Shown here piece after piece: positions 1 to 30,254 of a stretch of 38,159 nt of DNA. The position numbers and the translations under genes were made by a program. The DNA comes from an uncultured Lachnospiraceae bacterium (lineage in GTDB: Bacteria; Bacillota; Clostridia; Lachnospirales; Lachnospiraceae). The notes under the pieces were generated by a model. That model did not search any database. It saw only the letters and a program-made list of their open reading frames with translations, and was not told the DNA's origin. Positions within the stretch are counted from its first letter, which is position 1; the number at the start of each line of letters is the position of its first letter. The stretch is taken from NCBI GenBank assembly GCA_947175175.1, contig CAMWLV010000020.1, positions 1 through 38,159 of the forward strand, in the 5' to 3' direction.

Positions 1-141
1 GACGAAGCAGAGGAGTACGAAGAACCACAGGAATACGATGAAGCTGAAGCATATGAGGAACCACAGGAGTATAATGCAATAGAGAAGTATGAGGAACCAC
101 AGGAATACGACGAAGCAGAGGAGTATGAAGCACTAGAGGAA
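1..141 (+). repeat. 36-bp tandem repeat coding for an acidic 12-residue unit
   Basis: Four consecutive 36-bp units begin at 1, 37, 73 and 109 and encode DEAEEYEEPQEY, DEAEAYEEPQEY, NAIEKYEEPQEY and a degenerate fourth copy, DEAEEYEALEED. The array probably continues upstream of the window. The unit is a multiple of three, so copy-number change would lengthen or shorten the cytoplasmic tail of the lysozyme without a frameshift. Confidence 0.85.
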
Positions 142-3100
142 GATGAGTCGCTGTACAGTACCAAGAAAATTGATATCGAAATCTATATTCCAACGGAAGA
201 TGAGTCATTATACAGTACCAGGGAAATTGATCTAGAGCTCTATGAGCCAGACGATTACGCAGAGGATACAGAGAGCTATTATGAGAATGCGGAAGAAGAC
301 ATTTATGAGGAAGGCGAGGCAGAGTATTATGCATCTGACGAATACTATGAAGATGAGTATGTGAATGAGGAGTTTGTCGAGGAAGCATATGTTGACGAGG
401 AGTATATTGAGGAAGAATATGTGAATGAAGAGTATGACGAGGACTCTTTTGATATTGCATATGGTGATTTTGAGGCGGATTATGAGCCTGATGATGTGCT
501 GTATGAGGATGATGGGGGGGAGGAACTGCTTGGTTTCTGGCAGAGAGTAAAAATGCGGCTCAGTCATTTGACTGCCTTTGACGCAGTCCTTGCGTCCACA
601 GGTGTCGTTGTTCTAGTGGTCGCTTTCGTGATTCTGAGTATGTTTTTGCAGTCGAGACAGATCAACAAGCAGATTGAAGCGCTTGCACCTCTGGGGAATG
701 AACTCAAGGAGATGGGAATTGTAGGCGGTGATGGTCTGTTTGCCATGACAGATGCTGCACTCTCAGGAAATTTTGCACAGACAGCAGACCAGGAAGAGCT
801 TAACGCAGAGGATACATCTTCGATTGAGGTGATCGACATACCAGAGTCAACAAAAGTGAATGTCAGCTTTGTGTCTGTAGAGAAAGATTTAAAGATACGT
901 TTTACAGATGTCAATACAGGGGAACTGATCACAGGAACGGTTTTTGAGGTGACATTGACGAACGCAGCAGGAAAGCAGCTTGTCCTCACGGACGATGATA
1001 TGGATGGAATTATCTATGCGCAGAATGTGAACGCAGGGGTGTTTGATGCAGTTGTGACCTCGACGGACAAATACAAGTTCCCAGCCATAGCACAGCAGGT
1101 TACAGTCAAGGATAAAGTTGAGTATGTGGTGATCAATGTGCAGGATGAGGTAAAGACAGAGAAGCAGATCAATGTGGCGGCCGAGGATACGGAGAAAAAT
1201 GTCGCGGCAGCGGAGGCGGAGATACTCAAAGACACTGTGGAGTGGGTGGAGTCGACCAAGACACCTGTGAGCGGTTCGGAGAGTTATCTATTGGTGGATA
1301 AAAATACGATTGCGGATCCATCACAGGTATCAAAGGCAGCGGCGAGAATGCTGTTTGACACATTAAGTGTGACGCTGGAACCATCGAATGTGACTTTGAG
1401 CGTAGGTTCAAGCATTGACCTAAAAGGGAAGGAATTTGCGAATGTAACAGAGGGGGATATAGAGTATCAATACACAGCCGAGTGGAAAAGTTCAAATGAC
1501 AGCGTTGCGTCAGTGAGCGGCGGAAAGGTGACTGCAAGGGCTGCGGGAGAAGCGGTTATCACCTATACCGTTACCAGAAAAACGATCACGACGACGTATG
1601 TATCCAAGGAACCTGTCGAGGAGATTTTGGAGATATCCGTTGATAAGTATAAGAATGAATTGTCTGAAACGGAGAGAGGGAAATGCACTGAGATTAAGGA
1701 TGATTCTGGACAGATAACAGGTTATACATTCAAGAAGACAACAGAGCAGGAGCCAGAGAAAAAGACAAGCGAGACGACGGAGAGTGCCAGCGCAGAGTGT
1801 AAGATCACTGTTGAGCCGGCAAAGATCACATCTGGCAGTCTGGAATTGTCCAAGAGTGCAGACAGCTGTGCAGTCGGCGCGACGCTGACTGTGAAGCCGT
1901 CAAAACTTGTGTATACAAAGCAGGATGGAAGTACGGAGACTCTCACCAGTAATTTCCCGTCTATTGCGTGGGAAAGCGCTGACAAAACAATCGCGACTGT
2001 TGGAACAGATGGTGTAGTGACAGGTGTGAAAGCGGGAAAAGTACATATTACAGGCAGGGTTACAGGCGTCAATGGAGCGGACGGTAAGGAGCTGGATATC
2101 CGATGCAGTGTGGAGATCAGTGTTACCGAGGCAGTAGACCTTGTACTAACACTTGACAGGACAAACGATGTGTATCTTGCAGTAGGGGGCTCTACAACGC
2201 TTGTGGCAACAGTAACGAATTATAAGTCTGATGCGGGAGTGACATGGGAGACTTCTGACAAAAACGTTGCAACGGTCAATGAAAAGGGTGTTGTGACCGG
2301 TGTAGCGGCAGGAAGCGTGAAGATCACAGCGACTACGAAGGAAAAGGATAAGAGTGGAAAGCAGAAACAGGCGACCTGCGTCGTGACAGTCAATTCCAAT
2401 GCAACATCTGACACGACGACAAAGCTGAAGGATAAGAACGGGAACCAGATCTATGTCAAAAATTCAGACGGCAGCTACAGGGAGGCAGTCTATGCAGACT
2501 ATTTCACCAGCTCTGAATTTTATATCGTGGCACAGTCAAATTATGTGTATACAGGGTGGCAGACGATCAATGGAAAGACTTATTACTATGACAAGAATGG
2601 CAATGTTGTGACCGGAACTCAGATCATTCAGGGTGTTACCTACAACTTTGGCACAGACGGGGCGATTGCGACAACGGTCAACGGATCGACGTTTGGGATC
2701 GATGTTTCAAGGCACAATGGAACAATTGACTGGAATGCAGTCAAGGCATCGGGTGTCGATTATGTCATTATCCGCTGCGGTTACAGGGGATCTTCCACAG
2801 GCGCACTGATCGAGGACCAAAACTTCAAGACGAACATCAAGGGTGCCACGGCGGCGGGGCTGAAAGTCGGTGTGTATGTGTTCTCTCAGGCAGTCAATGA
2901 AGTTGAGGCAGTCAAGGAGGCATCACTGGCAGTGAGTCTTGTAAAAGGTTATAACCTAACCTATCCGATTTTTATCGACACGGAGGCAAGCGGCGGCAGG
3001 GCTGATAAGATCGACAAGGCGACGCGTACCGCGGTGGTGAATGCGTTCTGCCAGACGGTTTCCAGCGCAGGATATCAACCTGGAATTTATGCATCAAAAA

Positions 3101-3282
3101 CGTGGTTTGAGGACAAACTGAATATGGGTGCGGTTGGCAGCTGCAGGATATGGCTCGCACAGTATTCCGCGGCACCTACATATACAGGAAGAAAGTATGA
3201 TATGTGGCAGTATTCCAGCAAGGGTAAGATCAGCGGGATCAGCACGGCTGTTGACCTGAACTACAGTTACTTAGGGTATTAG
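1..3282 (+). CDS. Membrane-anchored GH25 lysozyme with Big2 and cell-wall-binding domains (5' partial)
   Basis: The frame is open from base 1, so the start lies upstream; the GTG at 361 is internal. At least 1093 residues are encoded. In window codon numbers: an acidic, Tyr-rich tail with tandem repeats (1 to about 190); one membrane helix (about 196-216, bases 586-648); a small beta domain (about 290-385); three Big2 Ig-like domains (about 450-800); two cell-wall-binding repeats (around 850-895, with GWQTINGKTYYYD); and a GH25 domain from about 899. GH25 catalytic residues are visible: D901 in GIDVS and D993/E995 in FIDTE, plus DMWQYSS near the end. GH25 enzymes cleave the MurNAc-GlcNAc bond of peptidoglycan. 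With no signal peptide in view, the tail should be cytoplasmic and the rest outside (inference). Its role may be to remodel the wall where polymer is attached. Function is firm; full length is unknown. Confidence 0.93.
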   Translation, partial: DEAEEYEEPQEYDEAEAYEEPQEYNAIEKYEEPQEYDEAEEYEALEEDESLYSTKKIDIEIYIPTEDESLYSTREIDLELYEPDDYAEDTESYYENAEEDIYEEGEAEYYASDEYYEDEYVNEEFVEEAYVDEEYIEEEYVNEEYDEDSFDIAYGDFEADYEPDDVLYEDDGGEELLGFWQRVKMRLSHLTAFDAVLASTGVVVLVVAFVILSMFLQSRQINKQIEALAPLGNELKEMGIVGGDGLFAMTDAALSGNFAQTADQEELNAEDTSSIEVIDIPESTKVNVSFVSVEKDLKIRFTDVNTGELITGTVFEVTLTNAAGKQLVLTDDDMDGIIYAQNVNAGVFDAVVTSTDKYKFPAIAQQVTVKDKVEYVVINVQDEVKTEKQINVAAEDTEKNVAAAEAEILKDTVEWVESTKTPVSGSESYLLVDKNTIADPSQVSKAAARMLFDTLSVTLEPSNVTLSVGSSIDLKGKEFANVTEGDIEYQYTAEWKSSNDSVASVSGGKVTARAAGEAVITYTVTRKTITTTYVSKEPVEEILEISVDKYKNELSETERGKCTEIKDDSGQITGYTFKKTTEQEPEKKTSETTESASAECKITVEPAKITSGSLELSKSADSCAVGATLTVKPSKLVYTKQDGSTETLTSNFPSIAWESADKTIATVGTDGVVTGVKAGKVHITGRVTGVNGADGKELDIRCSVEISVTEAVDLVLTLDRTNDVYLAVGGSTTLVATVTNYKSDAGVTWETSDKNVATVNEKGVVTGVAAGSVKITATTKEKDKSGKQKQATCVVTVNSNATSDTTTKLKDKNGNQIYVKNSDGSYREAVYADYFTSSEFYIVAQSNYVYTGWQTINGKTYYYDKNGNVVTGTQIIQGVTYNFGTDGAIATTVNGSTFGIDVSRHNGTIDWNAVKASGVDYVIIRCGYRGSSTGALIEDQNFKTNIKGATAAGLKVGVYVFSQAVNEVEAVKEASLAVSLVKGYNLTYPIFIDTEASGGRADKIDKATRTAVVNAFCQTVSSAGYQPGIYASKTWFEDKLNMGAVGSCRIWLAQYSAAPTYTGRKYDMWQYSSKGKISGISTAVDLNYSYLGY
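142..255 (+). repeat. 57-bp tandem duplication in the lysozyme tail
   Basis: Two 57-bp (19-codon) copies lie at 142-198 and 199-255. Both begin DESLYST and continue with a similar pattern: KKIDIEIYIPTE in the first, REIDLELYEPDD in the second. This is a second, independent repeat class directly after the 36-bp array, in frame with the lysozyme. Confidence 0.85.
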
Positions 3283-3313: not shown

Positions 3314-3352
3314 GAGATGTACGATTAAATTTCATGTGGAGGTATATATTTG

Positions 3353-4429
3353 ATGAGAACTTATTTGGTGACTGGCGGTGCAGGCTTTATCGGATCAAAC
3401 TACATTCATTATATGTTTCGAAAATATGATAAAGAGATCAGGATCATCAATGTGGATGTACTGACTTATGCTGGAAATCTTGAGAACCTGAAGGATATAG
3501 AAGACAGGGATAACTATACATTTATCAAGGCGGACATTACGGACAAGGAAGCGATCGCAAAGATTTTTGCGGAGAATGACATTGACCGGGTAGTTCATTT
3601 TGCGGCGGAGAGTCATGTGGACAGGAGCATTAAGAATCCGGAAGTATTTGTGCAGACCAATGTACTTGGCACAGCCGTGATGCTCAACTGTGCAAAGGCG
3701 GCATGGGAGCTTCCTGACGGGAGCTTTCAGGCAGACAAGAAGTTTCTCCATGTGTCGACAGATGAAGTATACGGTTCTCTTGAGGAGGATGGCGGGTACT
3801 TTTATGAGACTACCCCATATGCGCCGCACAGCCCATATTCCGCGAGTAAGGCGTCTTCGGACATGCTTGTGAGGTCTTATATGGACACTTACAAATTTCC
3901 GGCAAATATTACAAACTGTTCGAATAACTATGGACCATATCAGTTTCCAGAGAAGTTTATTCCGCTGATCATCAACAATGCACTGCAGGGAAAAAATCTT
4001 CCAGTGTACGGGGATGGAAAAAATGTGCGTGACTGGCTTTATGTCGAGGATCACGCAAAGGCGATTGACATGGTGCAGGAAGAGGGGAGATTATTTGAGA
4101 CTTATAACATAGGCGGACACAACGAAAAGCAGAATATTGAGATTATCAATATTATTCTTGAAACGCTTCAGGAGCAGCTTGCCGATGATGATCCGAGAAA
4201 GAAACTTGTATCGAAGGATCTGATCACGTATGTTGAGGACAGAAAAGGACACGACAGACGTTATGCGATCGCGCCGGATAAAATCAAGGCAGAGATTGGG
4301 TGGGAGCCGGAGACGATGTTCAAAGACGGTATCAGACAGACGATTCAGTGGTATTTTGATCATGATGAATGGATGAAGAATGCGACAAGCGGCGATTACC
4401 AGAAGTACTATGCTGAAATGTATAAATAA
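3353..4429 (+). CDS. rfbB: dTDP-glucose 4,6-dehydratase
   Basis: Converts dTDP-glucose to dTDP-4-keto-6-deoxyglucose, the second step of dTDP-L-rhamnose synthesis, in the cytoplasm using bound NAD+. Extended SDR features are clear: an N-terminal dinucleotide-binding GGAGFIGSN, STDEVYG in the active-site region, and the catalytic Tyr/Lys pair in YSASK. The product is 358 residues, normal for RfbB. ATG 3353 is chosen, with GGAGG at 3338-3342 ten bases upstream; an in-frame TTG at 3350 would add one residue and has tighter spacing. First gene behind the putative promoter at 3285; rfbA follows after 118 bp. Confidence 0.96.
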   Translation: MRTYLVTGGAGFIGSNYIHYMFRKYDKEIRIINVDVLTYAGNLENLKDIEDRDNYTFIKADITDKEAIAKIFAENDIDRVVHFAAESHVDRSIKNPEVFVQTNVLGTAVMLNCAKAAWELPDGSFQADKKFLHVSTDEVYGSLEEDGGYFYETTPYAPHSPYSASKASSDMLVRSYMDTYKFPANITNCSNNYGPYQFPEKFIPLIINNALQGKNLPVYGDGKNVRDWLYVEDHAKAIDMVQEEGRLFETYNIGGHNEKQNIEIINIILETLQEQLADDDPRKKLVSKDLITYVEDRKGHDRRYAIAPDKIKAEIGWEPETMFKDGIRQTIQWYFDHDEWMKNATSGDYQKYYAEMYK

Positions 4430-4444
4430 TAAGGTTAAGTTACA

Positions 4445-4477
4445 GGGAACGTCAGTATCGAAAGGTAGGGCGTTCCC
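4445..4477 (+). other. Inverted repeat upstream of rfbA
   Basis: GGGAACG at 4445-4451 pairs perfectly with CGTTCCC at 4471-4477 across a 19-base loop, in the 118-bp gap between rfbB and rfbA. There is no T-run after it, so it is not a typical terminator. It may affect mRNA stability or be chance. Confidence 0.3.
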
Positions 4478-4547
4478 ACTTTGGCATATGATGCACAGGG
4501 GCACATGTGGCACCTGTATGACGAAGAATGAATAAAAGGAGTAGACG

Positions 4548-5417
4548 ATGAAAGGTATTATATTAGCAGGAGGTTCCGGCACAAGGCTTTACCCACTGAC
4601 AAAGGCGATTTCAAAGCAGATCATGCCGGTATATGACAAGCCGATGATCTATTATCCGTTATCAACGCTGATGCTTGCGGGAATCAGGGATATTTTGATC
4701 ATCTCGACGCCGCGCGATCTTCCGACGTTTGAGGAATTGTTTGGCACGGGGGAACAGCTGGGGCTTCATATGGAGTACGCGGTTCAGGAGCAGCCAAGGG
4801 GACTTGCGGATGCCTTTATTATTGGTGCTGATTTTATCGGAAAGGATTCCGTGGCGCTGGTGCTCGGCGACAATATCTTTTACGGACAAAGCTTTTCAAA
4901 GCTTTTGCTGCGCGTCGCGGCAAAGGAGAGCGGTGCTACAATATTTGGATATTATGTGCGCGATCCAAGGGAGTATGGTGTTGTGGAATTTGACAAGGAC
5001 GGAAAGGCGATTTCGATTGAGGAAAAGCCGGAAAAACCAAAGAGCAACTATGCGGTGCCAGGACTTTACTTTTATGACAATGATGTGGTCGAGATTGCCA
5101 GAAATGTAAAACCATCTGCGCGGGGCGAGATCGAAATTACAAGCATCAACAATGAATATCTGCAGCGCGGAACACTGACGGTTGAGACAATGGGACGCGG
5201 TTTTGCATGGCTTGACACAGGAAATCATGATTCCCTTCTCGACGCTGCGGATTTTGTCTGTGCATTCCAGAAGAGGCAGGGGCTTTACATTTCCTGCATT
5301 GAGGAGATAGCATATAAGAGGGGCTTTATCACGAGGGAGCAGCTGTTGAAGCTCGCAGAACCGCTGATGAAGACTGATTACGGAAAGTATCTTGTAGAGG
5401 TTGCCAATGGACTCTAA
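4548..5417 (+). CDS. rfbA: Glucose-1-phosphate thymidylyltransferase
   Basis: Makes dTDP-glucose from glucose-1-phosphate and dTTP, the entry step to dTDP-rhamnose. The N-terminus has the nucleotidyltransferase signature [11 protein letters not shown] followed by [25 protein letters not shown] and [20 protein letters not shown] are further family blocks. At 289 residues it is the usual RfbA length. An AAGGAG ribosome site sits just upstream. The substrate could be supplied by the phosphoglucomutase at 18072. Its last 11 bases overlap the start of the next gene, the second GH25 lysozyme, suggesting coupled translation. Confidence 0.96.
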
Positions 5418-6717
5418 GGGGAAGAAAATCGGGATACTGTTTGTATTGTGTTCCCTGCTGGCAGTGATGACAGCGGTGGTGCTGGTGAATTACAATAAAC
5501 TTATGGGGAAAAATCCGCCCCCCGCTGCTGGAAGCAATACAGACAGTGTTTCTTATCAGGTCGTAGAAGCGGATGGAAGGGTACATGGCGCTGATTTATC
5601 GGCATTTATGAAGGACAGCGATTTTTTTGATGCCGAAGTGCCAAACGGTTCCAATCAGAGTACATATGATGAAGTGGATGAGAACGGTGAGTCCGTGCGC
5701 AGTCTCACTGTTCTGGCAAGTTCTGTGGAGCGTGATATCAGGGTGAAGATTGTCGATGACAAGGGCGATGTGGTATCAGGAGAGAAATTTGCCGTGGCGG
5801 TTGAAGACACTGGAGTGTATGTCGATGACGACAAGGACGGCGTCATACTGATTTCGGACATAAAACCCGGGGAATACAAAGTTTCCCTGAATGAGCAGCC
5901 GGGATTTAAGGTGCCGGCATCTCCTGTCAATGTCAGGGTGAAATCCATTGTGTCCTATACGGTTATCGATGATATTGACCTTTTTGTACATGAGGAGTCG
6001 GAGGTTGACATCCTCAAGGAGGATACGAAGGATAAGAAGATTGACAGCGAGGATGAGGACGATTCCCAGCACACGGCACTGCTGGACATGGAGAAGGACG
6101 AGCGTGAGAATGCTGTCAAACTCGGTATCGATGTATCAAAGTGGAATGGTGAGATTGACTGGGAGATTGTGAAAGCAGAAGGTGTTGATTTTGCGATTAT
6201 CCGCTGCGGTTACAGAGGTTCTTCTTCTGGATGGCTGATCGAGGATCCCTATTTTTATAAAAATCTGACTGGGGCAAAGAAAGCGGGAGTTAAGGTTGGC
6301 TTATATTTCTTCACACAGGCGATCAACCCTGTGGAGGCGGTCGAGGAGGCGAGTATGGTGGTCTCCCTGCTCGGTGACACTGAGATTGATTATCCGGTTT
6401 ATATTGACATAGAAGGTGCCGGAGGAAACGGAAGGGCGGACAATCTTAACGCGGCGGCAAGAACAGCAATTGCAAATGCGTTCTGCCGGACAATTCGAAA
6501 TGCCGGACTGGATGCGGGTGTGTATTCCAGCCGCTACTGGTATTACAATAACCTGCTTGTGGACGAGATGGATTCGCTAAAGATATGGCTTGCGGAGTAC
6601 CGAGATACGCCTCTGTACACTGGGCGGTATGATATGTGGCAGTACACTTCAAGCGGCAGTGTCGCTGGCATTGAGGGAAGGGTCGACTTAAATGTCAGCT
6701 ATTTGGGTATAGAATAA
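5407..6717 (+). CDS. Membrane-anchored GH25 lysozyme, compact paralog
   Basis: A 436-residue peptidoglycan muramidase. After a short basic N-terminus, one membrane helix (about residues 8-28, [19 protein letters not shown]) anchors it. A beta domain follows (about 95-190) that resembles the one in the lysozyme at the left edge, then an acidic linker and a GH25 domain from about 240. Catalytic candidates are D242 in GIDVS and D334/E336 in YIDIE. It lacks the Big2 and cell-wall-binding modules of its paralog. ATG 5407 overlaps the rfbA stop by 11 bp; a TTG at 5401 is a less likely start. Its place between rfbA and rfbC suggests co-expression with rhamnose synthesis (inference). Confidence 0.92.
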
Positions 6718-6737
6718 GGAAAGGAATATGTGAGAAC

Positions 6738-7304
6738 ATGGGAAAGATTACAGTAGAGGAATGCATATCTGACGGGGTGGTCATAGAGGGACTCAAAGTG
6801 GTCACGCCACAGGTATTGAAAGATAACAGAGGTTATTTTATGGAGACCTACAACTATAACGATTTCAAGGAAGCAGGTATTGATCAGGTATTTGTGCAGG
6901 ATAATCAGTCAGCTTCCAAAAAAGGTGTCTTGCGAGGGCTTCATTTTCAGAAACAGTATCCGCAGGATAAGCTTGTCCGTGCAGTGCGGGGGGAAGTGTT
7001 TGATGTGGCTGTAGATTTGCGGGAAGGGTCGAAAACCTTTGGAAAATGGTTTGGTGTTCTTCTGTCAGACGAGAACAAGAAACAGTTTTTTATTCCCAAG
7101 AATTTTGCCCATGGTTTTCTGGTTTTGTCGGAATATGCAGAGTTTTGTTATAAATGTACGGATTTCTATCACCCAAATGATGAGGGGGGACTGTTGTGGA
7201 GTGATCCTGATATCGGGGTAAAATGGCCGATACCAGAGGGAATGGAGCTGATCTTTTCTGACAAGGATCAGAAATGGGGCGGAATAAAGGATTTTAAGCG
7301 ATGA
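6738..7304 (+). CDS. rfbC: dTDP-4-dehydrorhamnose 3,5-epimerase
   Basis: Epimerises C3 and C5 of dTDP-4-keto-6-deoxyglucose to give dTDP-4-keto-L-rhamnose. The 188-residue length is typical. The active-site segment GVLRGLHFQ carries the conserved His; VRGEVFDVAVDLR and FFIPKNFAHGFLVLS are standard cupin-fold blocks of the family. The stop overlaps the ATG of the exporter permease by four bases (ATGA), so the sugar pathway and the exporter are co-translated. The next enzyme, the reductase RfbD, is not found in the window. Confidence 0.95.
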   Translation: MGKITVEECISDGVVIEGLKVVTPQVLKDNRGYFMETYNYNDFKEAGIDQVFVQDNQSASKKGVLRGLHFQKQYPQDKLVRAVRGEVFDVAVDLREGSKTFGKWFGVLLSDENKKQFFIPKNFAHGFLVLSEYAEFCYKCTDFYHPNDEGGLLWSDPDIGVKWPIPEGMELIFSDKDQKWGGIKDFKR

Positions 7305-8116
7305 GAAATAGTTTGGTGGGACTGTGGCGGTCAAGGCAGCTGATCTGGAAGCTTGCGAAAAATGATTTCAAAAACCGTTTTGCAGGCTCATATCTGGGAC
7401 GTGTGTGGGCATTTGCGCAGCCTGTTGTGACCGTACTGCTGTATTGGTTTGTGTTTGGGCATATCATGATGGCGGACAAGAAGGAGCTGCTGACAGCGGG
7501 TGTGGAAGCGCCTTATGTGCTGTGGCTGACGGCGGGACTTGTGCCCTGGTTCTATTTCAGCGAGGCGGTCAGCAATGGGACAACATCTCTTCTCGAGTAC
7601 AGTTATCTGGTCAAAAAGGTTGTATTTCAGATTCGTATCATACCAGTCGTGAAGCTGATTGCAGCATCGTTTACCCATATGTTTTTTGTGGTATTTATGC
7701 TCCTGTTGTATTTTGTATATGGTTATAAACCAGATATTTACCTGCTGCAGCTGATTTATTTTAGTTTCTGCCTGTTTATATTTGTGCTGGCATTGAGCTA
7801 TACAACTTGCGCGATTGCTGTCTTTTTCCGGGATCTGATGCAGATTGTCAATATTTTCCTTCAGGTTGGCATGTGGGCAACACCGATTCTGTGGAATATC
7901 GCAATGCTGGATGGGGAACCAGTGCTTCAGGGAATCATTAAGTGCAATCCCGTCTTTTATATTGTAAATGGTTACAGGAACGCGATGTTTGCTGATACAT
8001 GGTTCTGGCAGGATGGTTATATGACAGTGTATTTCTGGGTTGTCACCGCTGCATTGTTTGGGGTGGGAACACTGATCTTTAGAAGGCTTAAAGTGCATTT
8101 TGCCGATGTGCTGTAA
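7301..8116 (+). CDS. Polysaccharide ABC exporter, permease subunit (Wzm/RgpC-like)
   Basis: A 271-residue integral membrane protein of the ABC-2 type. The N-terminal cytoplasmic part contains LAKNDFKNRFAGSYLGRVWAF, characteristic of Wzm/TagG/RgpC permeases, followed by about six hydrophobic helices (for example VTVLLYWFVFG and YLLQLIYFSFCLFIFVLAL). With the ATPase encoded next, it should move a lipid-linked polysaccharide across the membrane. It overlaps rfbC by four bases and is followed 32 bp later by the ATPase gene. Substrate inferred from context: a rhamnose-containing glycan. Confidence 0.92.
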   Translation: MRNSLVGLWRSRQLIWKLAKNDFKNRFAGSYLGRVWAFAQPVVTVLLYWFVFGHIMMADKKELLTAGVEAPYVLWLTAGLVPWFYFSEAVSNGTTSLLEYSYLVKKVVFQIRIIPVVKLIAASFTHMFFVVFMLLLYFVYGYKPDIYLLQLIYFSFCLFIFVLALSYTTCAIAVFFRDLMQIVNIFLQVGMWATPILWNIAMLDGEPVLQGIIKCNPVFYIVNGYRNAMFADTWFWQDGYMTVYFWVVTAALFGVGTLIFRRLKVHFADVL

Positions 8117-8148
8117 TGTGGCGAATAGCATAAAATACGGGGGAAACT

Positions 8149-9498
8149 ATGGAAGACAAACAGCTGCAACGAGAAGAAAACGCTGAAAATGCGATAACAG
8201 TGGAGCATGTCAGCAAGGTCTATAAGCTCTATGACAAACCGATGGACAGGCTTAAGGAAGCCCTGAAGCTTACCAGAAAGCAGAAATATCGCGAGGCGCA
8301 TGCTCTGTCCGATATCAGTTTTAATGTCAGACAGGGGGAGTGTGTCGGAATCATTGGAACAAATGGTTCTGGCAAGTCTACGATTTTGAAAATAATAACA
8401 GGTGTCTTGAATCCTACGGGGGGCAGTGTCACAGTTAACGGGCGGATCTCTGCTTTGTTAGAGTTGGGCGCTGGATTTAACATGGAATATTCAGGTATTG
8501 AGAATATTTATCTCAATGGTACCATGAACGGTTTTTCCAATGAAGAGATTGACGCGAGAATGCAGGATATCCTCGACTTTGCGGACATCGGTGACTATGT
8601 CCATCAGCCGGTGAAGACATACTCAAGTGGTATGTTTGTGCGCCTTGCCTTCTCGGTGGCGATCAACATTGATCCAGAAATACTGATTGTCGACGAAGCA
8701 CTCTCTGTCGGTGATGTCTTTTTCCAGGCAAAGTGCTATCACAAGTTTGATGAATTTAAGAAAATGGGGAAGACCATCATGATTGTAAGCCATGATTTGA
8801 GCAGTATTGCGAAGTATTGTGACAGGGTTATTCTGCTCAATCAAGGAGTGAAGCTTGGGGAAGGTTCTCCCAAGGCGATGATTGATGACTATAAGCGTGT
8901 CTTAGTAGGACAGTATGAGTTTCCCCAATCGAAAGCAGAACAAAATCTGCTGAACGATGCCGAGGTTCAGGAGGCAGTTCAGACCCATGCCGCTGCCCAG
9001 AAGCGTGCAAGACAGCAGCCAGAGGATGGGAGCACACAGGAGTCAAAAACACTGGAGTATGGAACGAAGCAGGCAGAGATAGAGGAGATCTATCTGACAG
9101 ATGACCGTGGGATCAGAACAAATTCCATTTTAAAAGGGCTTATGTTCCAGATCAATATGCGGGTGCGGTTTTATCAGGATCTGCCAGCGCCTATTTTTGC
9201 ATTTTCTTTTAAGACAGCCAAGGGGACTGAGATCACAGGAACGAATACGATGTTTGAGAAGGCGTTTCTGGAGCCAGTGAAAGCTGGTGATGTAAAGGAG
9301 GTTTGCTTTACACAGAAGATGTCGCTGCAGGGTGGTGAGTATTTGCTATCCTTCGGTGTGACAGGCTATGAAGGGGACGATTTCAAGGTATATCACAGGC
9401 TTTATGATGCGCTCGATGTGACGGTTGTGTCCGATAAAAATACAGTGGGATATTATGACATGGATTCGATAGTTGTGGTTAAAAATGTGGCGTTATAG
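8149..9498 (+). CDS. Polysaccharide ABC exporter ATPase with C-terminal carbohydrate-recognition domain (Wzt-like)
   Basis: A 449-residue ATPase partner of the preceding permease. Walker A is GTNGSGKST, the signature is YSSGMFVRLAF, Walker B is PEILIVDEAL, and the switch His is in VSHD. After a charged linker (about 255-305), residues about 305-449 form an extra beta-rich domain with a GTNT motif, as in the Wzt C-terminal domain. In E. coli O9a that domain binds the modified end of the finished chain and licenses export (established for that family). TagH/RgpD-type ATPases often lack or diverge in this part. Its presence beside a methyltransferase-kinase-like gene suggests end-modification-dependent export (inference). 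Confidence 0.92.
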   Translation: MEDKQLQREENAENAITVEHVSKVYKLYDKPMDRLKEALKLTRKQKYREAHALSDISFNVRQGECVGIIGTNGSGKSTILKIITGVLNPTGGSVTVNGRISALLELGAGFNMEYSGIENIYLNGTMNGFSNEEIDARMQDILDFADIGDYVHQPVKTYSSGMFVRLAFSVAINIDPEILIVDEALSVGDVFFQAKCYHKFDEFKKMGKTIMIVSHDLSSIAKYCDRVILLNQGVKLGEGSPKAMIDDYKRVLVGQYEFPQSKAEQNLLNDAEVQEAVQTHAAAQKRARQQPEDGSTQESKTLEYGTKQAEIEEIYLTDDRGIRTNSILKGLMFQINMRVRFYQDLPAPIFAFSFKTAKGTEITGTNTMFEKAFLEPVKAGDVKEVCFTQKMSLQGGEYLLSFGVTGYEGDDFKVYHRLYDALDVTVVSDKNTVGYYDMDSIVVVKNVAL

Positions 9499-28685: not shown

Positions 28686-30254
28686 ATGGGAAAGAAGAAA
28701 TCAACGTTTAAAAATATTATGGTTACGCTGGGGTGTACTGCGTTTGCCGGAGTGTATGTTCTCGGCGGGGGATATGTGATCAGCACATTCATGGACGGTG
28801 CAAATGGAACAAGACCGGCATGGTTGGAGAGAGTGGAAATCCATGTCGACGAAAATGCTTCGGAAAACATCGTAGCGGACAATTCTCTTTCAGGCAGTGT
28901 CATCGCAGGGGCAGCCGGTGTAGAAGGTGCTCGGAATGTAGACAATGCTCCCACAGGACAAAGTTCGGACAGTGGTGTGAATCATAATGGTAATAATGAT
29001 AAGTCCAGTTCCGGGGATACGCTTCAGAAGCCTAGATTTGAAGAGGAAGAGACAGAGACGGATGAGACAGATACAGAAACGGATGAGGCAGAATCAGAAT
29101 CAGAGACTGATTTAGAGTCGGAGACAGATGATGAGCAGTCTGAGGAATCAGAAGACGAGACAGACGACAAAAACGCTGATAAGAAAGAGGAAAAAGAAGG
29201 GAAAAAAGATTCCGTACAGGTAAGCCATGTAAAGGTTATCGATCAGGAGGACCAGGCACTTGCTGTTATGGCGGACGTGACTGCTGTGGTAAAGACAGCA
29301 ATGCCCTGTGTTGTGTCCATCACAAACGAGTATACGGCATATGATTATTGGTATGATGAGGAGTATGACGAGCAGGCAAATGGTTCAGGAATCGTTGTTG
29401 CGCAGAGTGACGAGGAGCTTTTGATCGTCACCAACTATCATGTAGTCGAGGATAACAATAATCTATATGTACAGTTCATTGATGAAGAGGAGGCGGTAGC
29501 TTATGTGAAGGGAACTTCGCCGGAGAATGACCTTGCTATTGTTTCTGTCTTTTTGGAAGATATGTCAGATAAGACGCTGGAAAGCATCGCAATCGCGGCA
29601 CTGGGGGATTCAGACAGCCTTCAGGTGGGAGAGCCGGCGATTGCGATCGGCAATTCGCTTGGATACGGACAATCCGTCACGACAGGAGTCATAAGCGCGC
29701 TGAACAGAAATGTGTTTGCCGACGATCCGGATATGATTCCAGGATACTTGATTCAGACGGATGCGGCGATTAATCCTGGCAATTCAGGTGGTGCGCTCCT
29801 GAACGTGAGGGGTGAAGTGATCGGGATCAATTCCAGCAAGATTGCCGACTATGTGATCGAAGGAATGGGATATGCCATTCCGATCTCGACTGCAAAACCG
29901 ATTATCGAAGATCTGATGCAGAAAGAGACAAGAAAAAAGGTGCCGGAGGAGGAGCGTGCTTTTCTTGGAATTGCTGGTACAGACGTCATCAAGGAGGCGA
30001 CTGCAAGGTATGATATGCCAGAAGGTGTGTATGTAAACAATGTACTGGAAGATACGGCTGCTGATGAGGCAGGGATCTTAAAGGGAGATATCATCATGTA
30101 CATAGACGGTGAGAAGATCACACGCATGGAGGAACTGCAGGGATTGCTGGAGTACTATGCGGCAGGTACTGAGGTTGAGGTCGTGCTGATGCGGCAGAGC
30201 GATGGTGAGTATAAGGAGCGGACTGTCGATGTGATGCTTGGATATAAAGAATAG
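28686..30254 (+). CDS. Membrane-anchored HtrA/DegP-family serine protease with PDZ domain
   Basis: 522 residues. An N-terminal membrane helix (about 11-36) is followed by an extracellular linker that becomes strongly acidic and Thr/Ser-rich (about 118-175, repeated ETD/ESE). The trypsin-like domain has the full triad: His252 in TNYHVVED, Asp282 in ENDLAIV, Ser367 in NPGNSGGAL. One PDZ domain follows (about 425-510; GVYVNNVLEDTAADEAGILKGD). HtrA proteases degrade or refold damaged proteins at the cell surface. AAGGAGGT lies eight bases or so upstream of ATG. The acidic tract before the protease domain is longer than in typical HtrA and may be a wall-spanning spacer (inference). Confidence 0.95.
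   Translation: MGKKKSTFKNIMVTLGCTAFAGVYVLGGGYVISTFMDGANGTRPAWLERVEIHVDENASENIVADNSLSGSVIAGAAGVEGARNVDNAPTGQSSDSGVNHNGNNDKSSSGDTLQKPRFEEEETETDETDTETDEAESESETDLESETDDEQSEESEDETDDKNADKKEEKEGKKDSVQVSHVKVIDQEDQALAVMADVTAVVKTAMPCVVSITNEYTAYDYWYDEEYDEQANGSGIVVAQSDEELLIVTNYHVVEDNNNLYVQFIDEEEAVAYVKGTSPENDLAIVSVFLEDMSDKTLESIAIAALGDSDSLQVGEPAIAIGNSLGYGQSVTTGVISALNRNVFADDPDMIPGYLIQTDAAINPGNSGGALLNVRGEVIGINSSKIADYVIEGMGYAIPISTAKPIIEDLMQKETRKKVPEEERAFLGIAGTDVIKEATARYDMPEGVYVNNVLEDTAADEAGILKGDIIMYIDGEKITRMEELQGLLEYYAAGTEVEVVLMRQSDGEYKERTVDVMLGYKE

Follow-up and report, generated by a model that had tools for sequence, protein, structure and literature searches.

A predicted membrane-anchored GH25 muramidase with a repeat-built acidic tail in Lachnospiraceae

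The first gene of the 38,159-nucleotide stretch analysed here (the window, which is the whole of contig C20 from genome G000) begins at base 1, the contig edge, within a set of tandem repeats and ends in the catalytic domain of a lysozyme. This arrangement raises the question of what a long, acidic and repetitive chain may contribute to a wall-cutting enzyme, and whether the repeats alter its length between relatives.

Domains and predicted orientation of the tailed muramidase

The GH25 muramidase gene occupies positions 1–3282 of the forward strand, as do all of its features described below, and is truncated at its 5′ end by the contig edge. The visible part of the N-terminal tail (1–567, residues 1–189 of the frame) is acidic and Tyr-rich and is followed by a single membrane-spanning segment (568–648). 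The ectodomain contains a Big_2 (Ig-like) domain (Pfam PF02368; 2167–2352, the top scorer of three), a choline-binding-type wall repeat (PF19127; 2551–2673) and finally the GH25 catalytic domain (PF01183; 2698–3240, E 6e-34). The PF01183 match scores 118 bits against a cut-off of 27 and covers the full profile (1–180 of 180). The nearest solved structure is that of a pneumococcal 1,4-beta-N-acetylmuramidase (pdb 2ww5), which shares the GH25 domain (E 1.4e-20) and choline-binding-type repeats but is without a tail of the Lachnospiraceae type. The motifs IDVSRHNG and FIDTE align with IDISEHNG and YYDVE of 2ww5, with the D and E kept; we take the Asp and Glu of this D..DxE motif to be the catalytic residues. 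From this similarity the tailed protein would be expected to have N-acetylmuramidase activity. The curated NCBIfam models supply no equivalog name for it. Two minus-strand open reading frames that lie over the tail (2–460 and 232–567) were rejected as genes, as they mirror its GAR/TAY-rich composition.

A scan of genome contigs returned 63 homologous loci, whose titles and tree labels place nearly all of them in Lachnospiraceae. Each of the 51 complete homologues contains a single hydrophobic segment, around which Lys and Arg residues average 3.8 on the N-terminal side versus 2.0 on the C-terminal side, being commoner on the N-terminal side in 34 of the 51 and tied in 13. Because of this single segment and the charge bias, the tail is most likely cytoplasmic, with the protein in an N-in orientation. 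The AlphaFold model of one relative (L043), for which the alignment held only 15 sequences, has a pLDDT of about 25 over residues 1–222, consistent with predicted disorder, and then continues with a long helix, which includes the membrane segment, and β domains. Four tails from the genus also lie deep within the disordered range of charge–hydropathy values. The original prediction of a lysozyme with a cytoplasmic tail agrees with the GH25, Big_2 and choline-binding domains, the one hydrophobic segment and the distribution of Lys and Arg.

Repeat arrays and tail length

The 36-bp array (12 residues, EEYEEPQEYDEA) lies in frame at 1–141 and consists of 18-bp half units that place a Tyr at every sixth residue. 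Tandem Repeats Finder gives a period of 36 with 3.9 copies in view and 71% matches over 1–141, and a period of 18 with 7.9 copies over 4–146. Identity at a lag of 36 is 0.704 over 1–144, whereas 2000 codon shuffles average 0.461 and never exceed 0.602. A 57-bp (19-residue) duplication with the motif DESLYST-K/R-K/E-ID-I/L-E-I/L-Y follows at 139–252; its copies at 139–195 and 196–252 (EDESLYSTKKIDIEIYIPT and EDESLYSTREIDLELYEPD) are identical at 43 of 57 positions, which none of 5000 codon shuffles reaches. Both the array and the duplication fall within the open frame that continues into the GH25 domain, and on the strength of the repeat search, the shuffles and this shared frame both of the repeats first described here are real. 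Their head-to-tail copies exceed chance and their periods are multiples of three, as in a coding minisatellite. A third in-frame array, overlooked at first, is found by Tandem Repeats Finder at 358–443 (period 30 bp with 15-bp half units, 2.9 copies), and the tail itself extends to about 567. Two conserved blocks punctuate this region, YAEDTESYY at 256–282 (15 of 23 complete genus tails) and DSFDIAYG at 442–465 (13 of 23). The strict EY-hexamer pattern is confined in this genome to the tailed GH25 gene; looser matches occur at a few other places in other genomes of the genus.

The upstream part of the gene, the recovery of which had been proposed, was located by searching G000 at the DNA level. 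The array reappears at the terminus of contig C65, the last 49 bases of which are exactly those that open the window. When the two contigs are joined, the gene begins at C65:19987 (reading MKKKRTLGSHGKNRGKKAKYTDEYIEDFY...), its first 480 nucleotides (C65:19987–20467, including the overlap) supplying the start codon and about five further units, to give approximately 8.75 units of 12 residues in all. The exact overlap indicates that the assembly broke inside the array, and the 36-bp repeats run off the edge solely because the contig ends there; the true number of units in G000 could therefore be higher. Tail loci are similarly open in eight of 31 cases in the genus, the contigs ending at or near the tail (L035–L038, L040, L042, L044 and L054). 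This suggests that the repeats break short-read assembly of these loci and, together with the break seen here, makes copy numbers from short reads uncertain. That the length of the array is itself an artefact of assembly, as such breaks might imply, is nevertheless extremely improbable: similar arrays are spanned by many independent contigs, including those of isolates A4 (L041) and COE1 (L053), and the units differ from each other in sequence. Caution is still needed with short-read genomes, which break or truncate the tailed GH25 gene.

The genomes compared represent one per species. One near relative, G017, has an ectodomain 97.8% identical in DNA to that of G000 and a contig that spans the tail region. 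It is one 36-bp unit shorter (93 versus 105 residues in the array region, G000 being joined across the contig break), and the 57-bp duplication is common to both. The expectation that tail length changes with copy number thus holds between near relatives for the 36-bp array and fails for the duplication, which is the same in both genomes. The duplicated 19-residue motif is single in several relatives; what was doubled is therefore a motif that recurs, and the doubling is older than the divergence of G000 from G017. Tail lengths in other close pairs are 3 to 96 residues apart and unequal in every pair listed, so that copy number is not constant among relatives. Such frequent differences between species, in arrays that keep the frame, might be taken to indicate a contingency device by which strains alter tail length at a high rate and so tune the enzyme. 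We regard this as very improbable: all best periods are multiples of three, which leaves no on/off switching, and the many synonymous changes between units of one array point to age rather than rapid turnover.

Tails and gene order across the family

Among the complete homologues 46 of 51 tails are acidic and five are basic, a distribution for which the tree requires two changes. Within this Lachnospiraceae GH25 family a long acidic domain on the cytoplasmic side is therefore the rule and not an oddity; it was at first considered unusual for a surface lysozyme, and may be so when set against characterized GH25 enzymes. The acidic tails are mostly Tyr-rich and mostly repetitive. Arrays are found in the tail of 53 of the 63 loci; their periods span 15 to 183 bp, the best period being a multiple of three in all 53, and the best array beats all 12 codon shuffles in 42 of the 51 complete tails. 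The repeat units are unalignable. Within the genus the tails range from 167 to 424 residues, with a coefficient of variation in length of 0.23 versus 0.01 for the rest of the protein, and are composed of 32–45% Asp/Glu and 10–18% Tyr. All 23 complete genus tails carry a basic head and 19 an EYIV-type motif. The sequence and length of the tail therefore appear to be free, while its composition and a few blocks recur. A motif of the type DDTLEFLSLDDE near the start of the tail in L070, L072, L076 and L089 recurs in many other Lachnospiraceae homologues. The basic tails (L077, L078, L086, L088 and L095) are rich in Lys/Arg with little or no Tyr, and some are still built from tandem repeats. One homologue, L096, is without a tail and lies outside the conserved gene order.

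This gene order is itself a consistent feature. Downstream of the tailed gene, at 3350–9498 on the forward strand, lie rfbB, rfbA, a second GH25 gene without the acidic tail, rfbC, an ABC permease and a TagH-like ATPase. The order tailed GH25, rfbB, rfbA, GH25, rfbC, wzm, wzt recurs in most loci, the second GH25 being absent in some, and the tailed gene nearly always stands at the head of this rhamnose/TagH-like ABC-transporter wall-polysaccharide cluster. The ATPase is nearest to the teichoic acid exporter TagH, with a score below the cut-off. The second GH25 muramidase (5401–6717) is also membrane-anchored and contains a SpaA-like domain.

A comparison of G000 with G017 gives a pN/pS of 0.08 over the ectodomain and membrane segment, which rises to 0.54–1.27 in the non-array part of the tail. 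Among units within one gene it is 0.11–0.15, the differences being mostly synonymous, and Tyr is kept at 30 of 30 positions in 15 units with mixed codons (TAC:TAT, 18:12). These values suggest that selection keeps the composition of the tail and the Tyr residues in its units; the signal is suggestive only, since comparisons of units are non-independent, and the low pN/pS could partly reflect homogenization.

Possible roles of the tail

A type II (N-in) membrane-anchored muramidase would, from its gene order, belong to a cluster for the export of a rhamnose-containing wall polysaccharide. Its tail may be an intrinsically disordered acidic chain with a basic head, a handful of conserved short motifs and variable Tyr/Glu-repeat filler, in which units could be gained or lost in frame and the length altered freely while selection holds the composition and end motifs. 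Such a chain could act as a flexible multivalent tether that keeps the muramidase close to a cytoplasmic partner or to the site of polysaccharide synthesis or export, so that the wall would be opened where the polymer is exported or attached. The tail probably helps to place the enzyme; we give the full reading, that a disordered multivalent tether positions a polysaccharide-cluster muramidase with the predicted topology and activity, about even weight. The fast evolution of the tail outside the array argues against it, as does the absence of a tail from L096, and the exact chemistry of the tail cannot be essential across the family, because in five homologues the tail is basic and contains little Tyr or none.

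The main rival to tethering is that the tail serves only as a disordered, nearly neutral spacer: an entropic chain that would passively keep the enzyme membrane-bound, its repeats being gained and lost by slippage with hardly any consequence. The broad range of lengths in the genus, the unalignable units, the relaxed pN/pS outside the array and the changes from acidic to basic are all consistent with a spacer, which we consider possible but rather unlikely in view of the prevailing acidic composition, the invariable basic head, the recurring motifs, and the low pN/pS and invariant Tyr of the units. The abundance of Tyr, one per six residues in the array, and the position of the gene in a polysaccharide cluster could instead point to a polysaccharide-type bacterial tyrosine kinase, for which the tail would serve as a phosphorylation platform. 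The BY-kinase model TIGR01007, however, is matched above its cut-off in five of 36 genus genomes, G000 (86.5% complete) not being among them, whereas almost every genome of the genus has the tailed gene; Tyr-free tails also exist. A dedicated BY-kinase partner was therefore rejected as a general explanation, and a platform of this kind is very doubtful. A further-reaching form of the tethering idea would apply to the Lachnospiraceae as a whole: a class of trans-membrane muramidases with disordered, multivalent acidic Tyr-repeat tails would gather or bind the polysaccharide machinery in the cytoplasm and couple polymer export on the inside to wall opening on the outside, selection acting on composition and not on sequence. 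This is a speculative proposal that we think unlikely as it stands.

Known systems offer analogies for a tethered muramidase. AtlE of Enterococcus faecalis is likewise a GH25 muramidase; its gene lies within the EPA locus for a rhamnose polysaccharide, and its function is linked to this polymer, on the release of which it can act (PMC12208459). Unlike the tailed protein it is secreted by a signal peptide, with an N-terminal catalytic domain and C-terminal GW or DUF5776 repeats, and the published account describes neither a membrane anchor nor an acidic tail in the cytoplasm (PMC12208459). In MapZ of Streptococcus pneumoniae the cytoplasmic tail is disordered, starts with basic residues and includes a conserved segment, and it shows that such a tail can bind lipids and a cytoplasmic partner (PMC7055233). 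The likeness is one of architecture alone, namely a disordered N-terminal domain with a positive start, one membrane helix and a peptidoglycan-binding outer domain; in contrast MapZ is not a hydrolase, and its partners are FtsZ and lipids (PMC7055233). The openly available literature searched contains no earlier description of the tailed-GH25 arrangement, which is conserved in a large gut family and apparently undescribed. Such an arrangement, in which gene order links a rhamnose-type wall polysaccharide to a membrane muramidase whose inner tail is built of repeats, would provide a testable way into the coordination of polysaccharide export and wall cutting in Lachnospiraceae.

The repeats themselves resemble other bacterial intragenic tandem repeats (PMC3899988) in being in frame and in setting protein length by their number, but here they are found in the predicted cytoplasmic tail of an envelope enzyme and not in an exposed region. 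Elsewhere in the window an HtrA-like protease (28686–30254) contains an E/T/D-rich array with a 21-bp period (29048–29099) in the linker after its membrane segment.
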